Shown here: one piece after another, positions 16,014-20,486 of the stretch
Position numbering within the stretch: the stretch's first letter is position 1
Layout of the letters: each line of letters opens with the position of its first letter
Assembly: GCA_025454395.1 (NCBI GenBank)
Contig: JALOOM010000003.1
Span: forward strand, 62,001 to 126,000
Source of the DNA: Elainella sp. Prado103
GTDB taxonomy: Bacteria; Cyanobacteriota; Cyanobacteriia; Elainellales; Elainellaceae
Length of the DNA stretch: 64,000 bases
Direction of reading: 5' to 3'
Translations under genes and position numbers: made by a program
Notes under the pieces: model-generated
The model's input: the letters and a program-made list of their open reading frames with translations, nothing else
The model's database searches: none
What the model was told of the DNA's origin: nothing

Positions 16014-16718
16014 ATGATGAGCGATGAGCAGATTGATCTATTCAACTTCGCCACCGATCCCCAACCCGCTCCTAGCACCAATCCGGAGCTGATTCCGACC
16101 AGTGCTAAAGTACCTATCCCACCGGGTATTTATGATTCCATGGCGGCAATGGCGGCTCACTGCAATCAATGTCATCGCTGTGAGTTAGGTGCTACTCGTA
16201 CCCATGCCGTAGTCGGACGAGGCAATCCGCAGGCAGATTTGATGATTGTGGGTGAAGGTCCCGGTCAGAACGAGGACGAGACGGGACTTCCGTTTGTGGG
16301 CAAAGCAGGACAATTACTAGACAAAATCTTGGAGTCGGTCAGGCTGACAGAGGACGATATTTTCATTTGCAACATCGTCAAATGCCGTCCACCCGGTAAT
16401 CGCACACCGACGCAGGAAGAGATGGATGCTTGCCGTCCCTATCTCCTGGAGCAGATCCGGATGGTTGATCCGAGGATCATTTTGTTATCCGGAGCCTCAT
16501 CCGTGCGGGGATTAGTCGGCGATAAGCGCGGCATTACCAAAATTCGAGGGGAATGGCTGGAATGGAACGGCCGTCTCTGTATGCCCGTGTTTCACCCCGC
16601 CTATCTCTTACGGAATCCCTCTCGCGATAAGGGCAGCCCCAAGTGGTTGATGTGGCAAGACATTCAGGCAGTGCGATCCAAGCTAGACGAACTACGCGGT
16701 TCCGAACAACCTCAATAG
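16014..16718 (+). CDS. Uracil-DNA glycosylase, type 4 (Fe-S)
   Basis: A family 4 uracil-DNA glycosylase, which removes uracil from DNA at the first step of base excision repair. The core has GEGPGQNEDETGLPFVGKAGQLLD (active-site loop at GEGPG), the motif HPAYLLRNPS, and cysteines for a 4Fe-4S cluster in NQCHRCELG (first pair) and NIVKCRPPGNRTPTQEE with a following Cys. The 234-residue length is normal with a ~40-residue N-terminal lead. ATG-ATG start; the second codon is equally possible. It stands alone, preceded by a candidate small RNA. Confidence 0.94.
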   Translation: MMSDEQIDLFNFATDPQPAPSTNPELIPTSAKVPIPPGIYDSMAAMAAHCNQCHRCELGATRTHAVVGRGNPQADLMIVGEGPGQNEDETGLPFVGKAGQLLDKILESVRLTEDDIFICNIVKCRPPGNRTPTQEEMDACRPYLLEQIRMVDPRIILLSGASSVRGLVGDKRGITKIRGEWLEWNGRLCMPVFHPAYLLRNPSRDKGSPKWLMWQDIQAVRSKLDELRGSEQPQ

Positions 16719-17118: not shown

Positions 17119-17838
17119 CTACTGCGCCACACTTTGAGCCTCACAGTCTCGTAACCATAGGCGGATCGCTTGAGCAATTACCCCTTGACTGCTATCCCGC
17201 GGCGGGGTCGGGGGTTCATCGGCACGCGCATTGCCAACACTCGAAAGCATTAAAACAAAACGCCAGCCATTGTCTGTGTGGGTGAGAAAGAGCCAGTGAT
17301 AATGCTGCAATTGATAGGCATTGTCTGCCAAATATTGCCGTTCTAGTGTGGTGAAAAAAACTTGCAGAACTTCTGGATTGTTCACCGTTCGATCGATTTC
17401 ATCCCGTTCGATCGCCGCTGCATCGTCACCCGTTGGTAAGGGCAATGGCTCATATTCCGGTCGGCCAGCAAGCAGAATATAACCTGGCACTTCTGCCGTG
17501 CGGTAATCAGTATAGGATCGTTGGCTGACCCGGTTGGCATAACTCGGTAGATCCATCAGTAATCGTGGCACTAAGCGCTCTAGCTCAGTGGGACAAGCGA
17601 CTGGCGGCCGAATCCACTGGGGAGAATCGATCGGGGGATCAGTAGGAGGATCAGGATCAGTGTCCATCGATCGATTAGCATGATTTTCAATCGATCGGGT
17701 CAACCAACGGGGGGTTGAGCTGGTCAGTAAAAACCCGCCCACTCCCTCTAGAGACAACAGGAACGGCAACGGGGATAACCAGAGTTGCAGCAGCAGCACT
17801 AGCGGCACTGGCAGCACCGACACCACGGGCAAACTCAT
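17119..17838 (-). CDS. Hypothetical protein translationally coupled to pyrF
   Basis: A 239-residue protein not assigned to a family. Residues 1-40 are strongly hydrophobic ([19 protein letters not shown]) and suggest a signal anchor. A Pro/Asp-rich linker ([15 protein letters not shown]) follows, then a conserved-looking domain with acidic and aromatic patches ([35 protein letters not shown]). Its ATG overlaps the pyrF stop in the 4-base ATGA arrangement, so the two are co-translated. No enzyme motif is visible. Confidence 0.75.
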
Positions 17839-18548
17839 GAGGTCAGTTCTGCCACAATTTGAGCGAATACAGCCGCAGGGTCAGGCGCAGTCGTAATTGG
17901 CCGACCAATCACCAGATAATCGGCCCCTGCTTGACGAGCAGCAGTAGGAGTCATCGATCGCTGTTGATCGCCCGTTGCAGTTCCACTTGGACGTACACCT
18001 GGACAGACCAACAAAAATCGATCGCCACAAGTTTGCCGCAGTTGGGTCGCTTCTTGCGGAGAACACACTACGCCCGATAACCCGCTTTGTTGGGCTAGTT
18101 TGGCCAGATGGCAAGCATAGTCTGGTAGAGGAGTTGCGACTTGCAGTTCGGTAGTCAAGGCAGTGGGGCTGAGGCTGGTCAGAATCGTCACCGCAATCAA
18201 TCGAGGCGGTGTGATTCCCATTGCTTCTGCCTCCGCTTGGGCAGCCGCCTGAGCCGCTTGCAGGGCAGCTTGGCCCGCTGCCGCATGAACCGTCAACAGA
18301 TCCACTCCATAGCGAGTTGCCGATCGACAAGCCCCCGCCATTGTATTGGGGATATCGTGAAATTTCAGATCGAGAAAAATTCGCTTTTGTCGCGCTTTCA
18401 GAAGCTCTAAAATCCGGCCACCGGTCGCCACAAACAGCTCCAAGCCCACTTTCCAAAACTGCACTTCCGGCAGGCGATCGAGCAGGGTGATCGCAGTGGT
18501 TTCATCCGGGAGATCTAGCGGCACAATGATCCGTTCAGCAGGTGTCAT
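17835..18548 (-). CDS. pyrF: Orotidine 5'-phosphate decarboxylase
   Basis: Decarboxylates OMP to UMP, the last step of de novo pyrimidine synthesis. The catalytic signature [10 protein letters not shown] (about 60-69) is intact, as are the N-terminal VPLDLPD and the phosphate-binding end VCPGVRPSG and [11 protein letters not shown]. The 237-residue length is normal. It overlaps the downstream hypothetical gene by 4 bp. Confidence 0.97.
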
Positions 18549-18589
18549 CAGTTAAACCATAGAACTTACAAACCGATCGGTCAGCACGG

Positions 18590-18616
18590 GTCAGCACGGG
18601 TCAGCACGGGTCAGCC
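18590..18616. repeat. 10-bp tandem array upstream of pyrF
   Basis: GTCAGCACGG is repeated three times plus a partial copy, 42-68 bp upstream of the pyrF start. A looser set of CTCAATTCGCAC- and CTCGATCAGCAC-like units follows at 18764-18824. Confidence 0.8.
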
Positions 18617-18917
18617 CTGAATGAGCAGCACTCACTCAATTCGTACCAACCTGATTGACTGACAAAACTCAAACTACCCACTGCTACGCAGAAGCAAGCT
18701 ACACCCCAACCCCTCTCCCAGAGCGGGCGAGGGGCTTTCGAACCAGGCAGTCAATCAGCATACCAACTCAATTCGCACTCACTCAATTTGCACCAACTCG
18801 ATCAGCACGGACTCGATCAGCCCTTTTCATAAAATCCAAATAAACCCTTTAAATACACCCTATCACGATGTAATTTCCATAAAGCCTGAAGCTTCTCCCT
18901 TGTTTATACGGAGATCG

Positions 18918-19117
18918 TCAGCCTATGCTGTACTCAATCTAACTCCCATCTATGCCAAATATTACTGAGTAAGGCTTGAATTGAGGCAACGATCGCTTTC
19001 CATAACGCATCAGATTAGGTGGATACCCGATCACGAAAATCTGGTGGTTCTTGGGCGATCGAAGCATTCCGTCAACCCTAGCAAAGCTTTATCGGTTTAG
19101 GATCATAGGTCAGAACA
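18918..19117 (+). ncRNA. Candidate structured RNA with a rod-like fold, about 200 nt plus terminator
   Basis: Nested complementary segments can be read by eye: ATCTATG (18948-18954) with CATAGGT (19104-19110), AAGGCTT (18971) with AAGCTTT (19084), TTGA (18981) with TCAA (19072), CGATCGC plus TT (18990-18998) with GCGATCG preceded by GG (19053-19061), and CATCAGATT (19008-19016) with AATCTGGTG (19038-19046). This gives a long interrupted hairpin with an internal bubble, directly followed by a strong plus-strand terminator. No plus-strand gene precedes it for 2.2 kb. The shape and size recall 6S RNA, but identity was not established. The 5' end is a guess; CCTATG near 18922 is an alternative partner for CATAGG. 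Confidence 0.45.
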
Positions 19118-19147
19118 GAGGGCACTCCACTCGGATGCCCTTTTTTC
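19118..19147 (+). terminator. Strong plus-strand Rho-independent terminator
   Basis: AGGGCA (19119-19124) pairs with TGCCCT (19136-19141). TCC/GGA continues the stem past a single bulged C, the loop has four bases, and the T-run is six or more. Read on the minus strand there is no T-run, so it does not serve tyrS. Confidence 0.8.
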
Positions 19148-19214
19148 TTGTGATGGCATTTTATGGCATTATTTCCGATCGGGTGCTTTTCGCTCTGATG
19201 CTTTTCGCTGTTGC

Positions 19215-20486
19215 TTAATCAATTAGGCGGCGGAATTTGCGTTTTCCTACCTGGATCACCTTCCCGGACAGGTCAGCCGCACTGGCAAAGGTCTGATCCA
19301 CCCCATCAACACGCTGCCCTTCTAGCTTCACTGCGCCACCCTGAATTTGCCGACGGGCCTCCGAACTGCTATCGCACAAACCGCAGGCACTCAGAACGTA
19401 AAACAGCTTAGCTGGAAATTCGATCGCGCTCAGGGAGAATTCAGGCACCGATTTCGCCTGATCCGAAGCGCCGCCTAGAATGGTTTCCGCATCTTGTTGC
19501 GCTTGGAGAGCCGCCTCACGACCATGATATTGACTCACCACCTCCAGAGCTAACAGCTTTTGGGCTTCGCGCGCATCCGTGGGTAACTGATCCAGCGGCA
19601 GGTTGGTCAGTAGCTCAAAGTACTGTTTGACCGCGACATCCGGCACTTTTTGCAGCTTGGAATACATAGCGAGCGCGTCTTCCGTGAGCCCAACATAGTT
19701 GCCTAAGGACTTCGACATTTTTTGCACCCCATCTAATCCAGGCAAAATGGGCATTAACAACCCAAATTGCGGCCGCTGACCAAAATGACGCTGCAAATCT
19801 CGCCCCACCGCCAGGTTAAATTTTTGATCGGTGCCACCCAGCTCCACATCGGCTGCCAACGCCACTGAGTCATAGCCTTGCATGAGGGGATACAAAAACT
19901 CATGCAGGTAGATCGGCGTTTCTTTTTTGTAGCGCTCAGCAAATCCCTCTTTGGCTAACATTTGCCCAACCGTCATGGTACTGAGCAAAGACAAAATTTG
20001 AGCCAGGTCAAGCTGGGATAACCATTCGGAATTGTAACGAATTTCTAAGCGTCCGGGGGTGTCAAAGTCCAGAATAGGGCGCAATTGTTCGATGTAAGTC
20101 TCGGCATTCCGCTTCACATCCGCTTCTGTTAACTGTTTGCGCACCTCCGACTTACCCGTGGGATCGCCGATCCGAGCCGTAAAATCACCAATGAGCAGAA
20201 TGGCAGTGTGACCTGCGTCCTGAAAAGCTCGGAGCTTTCGGTAAACAATACTATGACCCAAATGAATTTCTGAACCCGTCGGATCAATCCCAAATTTAAT
20301 TCGCAGGGGACGATCGGTCTGCTGCAAACGAGCCACCAGATTTTCACTCGGATCTTGGGATTCCACTTGGTTAGGGAAAATGTCGATGGTGCCCCGTTCT
20401 AACCAGTCCACCGAGGAGAGCACGCTACCAGTTTTAGAAAGACCAGTTTTAGAAAGACCAGTTTTGGGAAGAGAGGTTTCAGACAT
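19215..20486 (-). CDS. tyrS: Tyrosyl-tRNA synthetase
   Basis: Class I aminoacyl-tRNA synthetase charging tRNA-Tyr. The HIGH-type motif is HLGH (75-78). KMSKS is intact at about residue 256 in KMSKSLGNY, and a C-terminal S4 RNA-binding domain is present (about 355-420). The 423-residue length is typical. The first ~20 residues ([15 protein letters not shown]) are a repeat-derived extension encoded by three 15-bp units near 20426-20470. Another short tandem repeat (GCCAGAACTGA units) lies upstream at 20529-20565. Confidence 0.97.

Follow-up and report, generated by a model that had tools for sequence, protein, structure and literature searches.

A candidate small RNA gene with conserved ends and a variable middle in the tyrS–pyrF spacer of Elainella sp. 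Prado103

The tyrS–pyrF spacer and a putative promoter

The window analyzed in this study is a 64,000-nt stretch of the genome of Elainella sp. Prado103, which was grouped with Elainella saxicola. Its tyrS–pyrF spacer (18549-19214) holds a plus-strand unit of approximately 210 nt, which is predicted to start near 18936 and ends in a T-run at 19141-19146 (Table 1); the predicted transcript covers 18936-19147, with the start placed from the promoter. An earlier note on this DNA, made from the sequence alone, had pointed to a plus-strand hairpin terminator here that no plus-strand gene precedes for more than 2 kb. Both observations were borne out: the terminator stem is formed by GGGCA (19120-19124) and TGCCC (19136-19140) and is followed directly by the T-run, and the nearest credible plus-strand gene upstream lies 2.4 kb away, a uracil-DNA-glycosylase-like ORF with its end at 16718. 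The spacer also contains a short tandem repeat of about 3-4 copies of GGTCAGCACG on the pyrF side (18580-18615), with no counterpart in the spacers inspected in relatives, and a CCCAACCCCTCTCCCAGAGCGGGCGAGGGGC-type hairpin (18706-18739) whose Rfam match (TCV_Pr) is at chance level and which is probably a small dispersed repeat.

Table 1. Features of the RNA unit and its flanking genes in the window
Feature	Position	Strand	Remarks
pyrF	17835..18548	-	Divergent; sole constant neighbour, flanks the RNA in 5/5 genomes
Upstream box TAAAGC, candidate activator site	18880..18885	+	Fixed distance before the -35 hexamer; putative function
-35 hexamer TTGTTT	18900..18905	+	CCTTGTTT (CCTTGGTT in one) conserved in five genomes
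-10 hexamer TATGCT	18924..18929	+	Aligned CTA...T columns in 5/5
Predicted transcript 5' end AATCTAACTCC, candidate seed with anti-Shine-Dalgarno-like ACUCC	18936..18946	+	Near-identical in five genomes; start predicted from the promoter
Variable middle forming the rod	18947..19087	+	141 nt in the window, 52-224 nt in relatives; folds differ
Conserved 3' block TTTATCGGTTTAGGATCATAGGTCAGAAC	19088..19116	+	BLAST, alignment A3, model R1
Intrinsic terminator, hairpin and T6 run	19118..19147	+	Hairpin folds in all relatives
tyrS	19215..20486	-	Convergent neighbour; not constant (pilM-like gene in G002)

A putative sigma-70-type promoter of the pattern CCTTGTTTnTACGG...TAnnnT, with a 17-18 nt spacer, precedes the unit in all five genomes that carry it. 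The -10 hexamer reads TACGAT, TAGGAT, TAGTAT, or TATAAT in the relatives, and a scan for strict consensus promoters, which left this hexamer unscored, reported no consensus promoter. The interval between the upstream box and the -35 hexamer is ungapped in 5/5 genomes (alignment A4), unlike the distance from the box to the start of pyrF, which ranges between about 45 and 330 nt. Visual inspection of the sequence upstream of the promoter gave no consistent match to RpaB-type HLR1 boxes. Given the positions of the two hexamers (18900-18905 and 18924-18929), transcription probably begins near 18936 and not at 18918, the start quoted earlier, which has the promoter just before and inside it. The near-identical AATCTAACTCC falls exactly where transcription should start, and its conservation could partly reflect promoter function.

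Conservation and distribution of the unit

BLAST searches against 60 relatives revealed two matching stretches within the same genus, 18868-18946 and 19083-19149, with no match between them. Chance expectations were 4e-17 over the 3' block and terminator in G001 and 1e-9 in G002. The set of RNA-carrying genomes comprises five members of two genera: the window genome (G000), Elainella saxicola E1 (G001), Pegethrix bostrychoides GSE-TBD4-15B (G002), cyanobacterium RM1_2_2 (G003), and Synechococcales cyanobacterium C42_A2020_086 (G017; names inferred). Each has the same four blocks in the same order, namely, the upstream box, the promoter, the 5' end, and the 3' block joined to the terminator. 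Two models, R1 built from the 3' half and R2 from the promoter half, were searched separately in 291 and 390 cyanobacteria, respectively, and returned significant matches in exactly these five genomes (R1 E-values of 2e-11 to 4.5e-17), with the rest at chance level.

Candidates for a wider distribution were rejected individually. A weak R1 match in G020 is an unrelated terminator, the R2 matches elsewhere among the 390 cyanobacteria do not exceed chance, and outside the genus, sequences one mismatch away from GGATCATAGGTCAGAA occur in unrelated contexts and lack a terminator. Two non-cyanobacterial matches (L078 and L080) from a pattern search with one genome per species are within chance expectation by our own estimate. 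A search of a plasmid collection gave no match, no trace of the unit was found upstream of pyrF in 25 other loci of the family, and neither pyrF nor the RNA was found in G004, a fifth sampled member of the genus with a 77% complete genome. In many other family members tyrS lies close to pyrF and the unit is absent, so the gene is probably either an innovation of this lineage or one that only this lineage has retained. It may therefore be a case of a young small RNA (sRNA) gene.

The unit is always located upstream of, and divergent from, pyrF, at a distance of about 45 to 330 nt across the five genomes. On the other side lies tyrS in the window, G001, and G017 (in the last case judged from a translated tail); in G002 this place is taken by a pilM-like gene, and G003 has yet another neighbour there. 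Because the RNA stays with pyrF while the downstream gene differs, it is not the leader or tail of a neighbour. In G003, tyrS (G003:C94:4359-5565, L011-L013) is split into three fragments by frame changes and stops, which may reflect an assembly error.

The rod, the conserved ends, and possible modes of action

The earlier note had described a structured RNA of some 200 nt that carries its own terminator and folds into a single rod with an internal bubble. The 230-base segment on which that description was based has a predicted folding energy of -68.0 kcal/mol (z = -2.81 against dinucleotide shuffles, 0/200 as good), and the fold from the predicted start gives -63.6 kcal/mol (z = -2.75, 1/200 shuffles as good). 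At minimum energy the sequence forms a long rod interrupted by internal loops, and the description was thus accurate for the window sequence taken alone. The rod does not carry over to the relatives, however, since the middle that forms it varies among them. Identity of the middle between genomes is 0.40-0.46 versus 0.44 for shuffled sequence. The exception is G001, at 0.57 across 37 aligned bases. The z-scores of the folds lie between -0.63 and -2.75 in the five genomes, and the G001 version, of 124 nt, folds hardly better than shuffles (z = -0.96). The predicted transcript accordingly differs in length, from about 124 nt in G001 through 161 nt in G003 and 198 nt in G002 to about 300 nt in G017.

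Judged from these comparisons and predicted folds, the rod is not the functional part of the RNA, and the conserved parts are the two ends. The promoter, the 5' end, the 3' block, and the terminator are retained in all five genomes regardless of the downstream gene, which supports an RNA gene with its own terminator. Fixed ends around a drifting middle indicate which parts matter, and they serve as a warning that a striking computed rod can be unimportant. Short ATG-started frames in the segment might suggest a small protein gene or an mRNA leader; this reading is very improbable given a middle of 52-224 nt with identity at random level, and a close co-directional downstream gene occurs only in G002, past the terminator.

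The 3' block, TTCATCGGTTTAGGATCATAGGTCAGAAC, is joined to the intrinsic terminator in all five genomes and is the best conserved part of the unit, with 29 nt nearly unchanged in three genomes (alignment A3) and an invariant core, ATCATAGGTCAGA, at 19102-19114, into which one T is inserted in G017. In G002, one pair of the terminator stem shows a two-sided change from G-C to A-U that keeps the stem. Comparison of orthologous spacers, which the earlier note had proposed, upheld the conservation of the blocks but not a conserved fold. Covariation over the five sequences (2 pairs; 99/500 shuffles as high) could not be separated from shuffles. A long-range pairing of AUCUAACUCC with GGUUUAGGAU, read by eye, breaks in G002 and G003 and is unsupported.

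The conserved blocks might act only at the DNA level, as a promoter region plus a terminator shielding pyrF and its neighbours from transcription, with the transcript a by-product. The constant divergent orientation from pyrF agrees with such a role, as does the upstream box and promoter being as conserved as the transcript ends. We nevertheless consider it improbable: the 29-nt block before the terminator is conserved far beyond what a terminator needs, the distance to pyrF is not fixed, and, since the next gene changes, insulation would have no fixed neighbour to act on at that end. Two conserved end blocks flanking near-random sequence are what one would expect if the unit is transcribed and its ends are functional; a DNA site would not be expected to show this pattern.

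Most of the predictions place the 5' AAUCUAACUCC in an accessible state. It is predicted to be mostly unpaired in the window, G001, and G003 (3/5 genomes; 0.92, 0.84, and 0.74). About half of it is predicted to be paired in G002, and most of it in G017 (0.29 unpaired). A search of the five genomes for GGAG-type sites (GGAGTNAGAT followed by ATG) found no conserved target for this 5' block. The single partial candidate is a copy of nblA in the window genome that carries GGAGTCAGAT directly before its ATG (predicted duplex of -15.1 kcal/mol); this nblA-like gene (L103, G000:C102:15469) is partly complementary to the RNA 5' end. In this one G000 copy 9/10 pairs form, but the nblA genes of the relatives do not preserve the pairing, and nblA was rejected as a target. 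For the 3' core, perfect complements occur in unrelated places in each genome, with no site shared by the five.

With no conserved target found for either block, protein binding by the 3' block is a serious alternative, if on balance an unlikely one. A real, terminated sRNA would then act through a GAUC-AUA-GGUC mini-hairpin and not by pairing with mRNA. The exceptional conservation of the block and the lack of a shared complementary site are consistent with this, and GAUC and GGUC can pair around a 3-4 nt loop in 4/5 genomes and partly in the fifth. On the other hand, the mini-hairpin is short, contains an invariant U-G pair, and displays no covariation, and protein binding would leave the conserved, accessible 5' ACUCC unexplained.

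Taken together, we favour, with somewhat better than even confidence, a stand-alone sRNA gene, about 210 nt long and equipped with its own promoter and terminator, that most likely encodes a trans-acting base-pairing regulator. Its promoter would drive transcription divergent from pyrF, and its intrinsic terminator would end the RNA. The near-invariant 5' end, mostly unpaired by prediction, would serve as the seed (UAACUCC), complementary to GGAG-type ribosome-binding sites. The 3' block beside the terminator may offer RNA or protein a further point of contact, and the rapidly changing middle may be a spacer. Conservation of the promoter, RNA ends, and terminator around a drifting middle fits a trans-acting sRNA, and by sequence and conservation the locus is an independent intergenic unit with its own promoter and terminator and no conserved ORF, as in trans-encoded sRNAs. 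A survey in Nostoc with similar logic (start site, terminator, and conservation), which began from measured start sites, had 14/14 tested predictions confirmed by Northern blot (PMC4734099).

A more specific proposal, to which we give slightly less than even chances, is that the unit represents a new lineage-restricted sRNA family that arose in the tyrS–pyrF spacer and whose regulatory role is confined to Elainella-type cyanobacteria. Its members would have two fixed, functional ends, a 5' anti-Shine-Dalgarno-like seed and a 29-nt 3' block contiguous with the terminator, on either side of a freely replaceable middle of 50-220 nt. In the literature searched, no paper was found on the locus or on sRNAs of Elainella or Pegethrix. 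The sRNA gene is ordinary-looking and apparently undescribed; genome comparison supports it well as a gene, and its mechanism is proposed by analogy. It adds an sRNA gene that lacks an Rfam match to a cyanobacterial group for which the same literature yielded no small-RNA study.

Comparison with known cyanobacterial small RNAs

The earlier note had suggested that the RNA resembles 6S RNA (RF00013, ssaA). The window sequence taken alone is indeed like 6S in its length of about 200 nt and its rod-like best fold, and Prochlorococcus has two types of 6S RNA according to work cited in PMC6202907. On this reading the unit would be a 6S or second 6S-type RNA, rod-shaped with a central bubble and bound to RNA polymerase. 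The covariance-model search proposed with that suggestion does not support it. An Rfam scan of the window detected one tRNA only; the 6S model had no match at its gathering score in the window and none to E 10 in 18500-19500, whereas a full-length 6S RNA of the genome lies on another contig (G000:C26:110943-111130) and scores 89.9 bits versus a gathering score of 46.4. The conserved 6S rod consists of a closing stem, a central bubble, and a terminal stem-loop, and here a rod-like fold is seen in the window sequence alone; neither rod nor length (124 to about 300 nt) is conserved in relatives that keep the gene. Unlike in 6S, where the ends form the closing stem, the ends of the unit do not pair with each other. 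The 6S reading is thus largely refuted and, of all those considered, retains the smallest probability. The gene that the earlier note recognized is very probably real, and the identity assigned to it was wrong.

Yfr1 is likewise a short cyanobacterial sRNA with an intrinsic terminator at its end and a strongly conserved, unpaired ACUCC segment that could cover ribosome-binding sites (PMC2190773). It is 54-69 nt long and has an invariant ACUCCUCACAC unpaired between two stem-loops (PMC2190773), whereas in the tyrS–pyrF RNA ACUCC stands at the 5' end, UCACAC does not follow, and the length is 124-300 nt. Identity with Yfr1 was rejected, as ACUCCUCACAC is absent from the locus and Yfr1-like copies (GTTTCCGTTCACTCCTCACACCACACTCCGCCTGG...) occur elsewhere in 5/5 genomes. 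These Yfr1-like genes carry a ACTCCTCACAC motif (L123 at G000:C33:8444, L116, L119, L120, and L122).

A parallel in organization is offered by PsrR1/SyR1 and other trans-encoded cyanobacterial sRNAs (PMC6202907; PMC6091082), which are free-standing intergenic genes with their own promoters and terminators and for which, as here, targeting of ribosome-binding sites is plausible. PsrR1 is 131 nt long and conserved in distant cyanobacteria (PMC6202907; PMC6091082), whereas the blocks of the tyrS–pyrF RNA occur in only 5/390 cyanobacteria, a narrow distribution that argues against any widely conserved cyanobacterial sRNA. The two are set apart here by distribution and description rather than by sequence.
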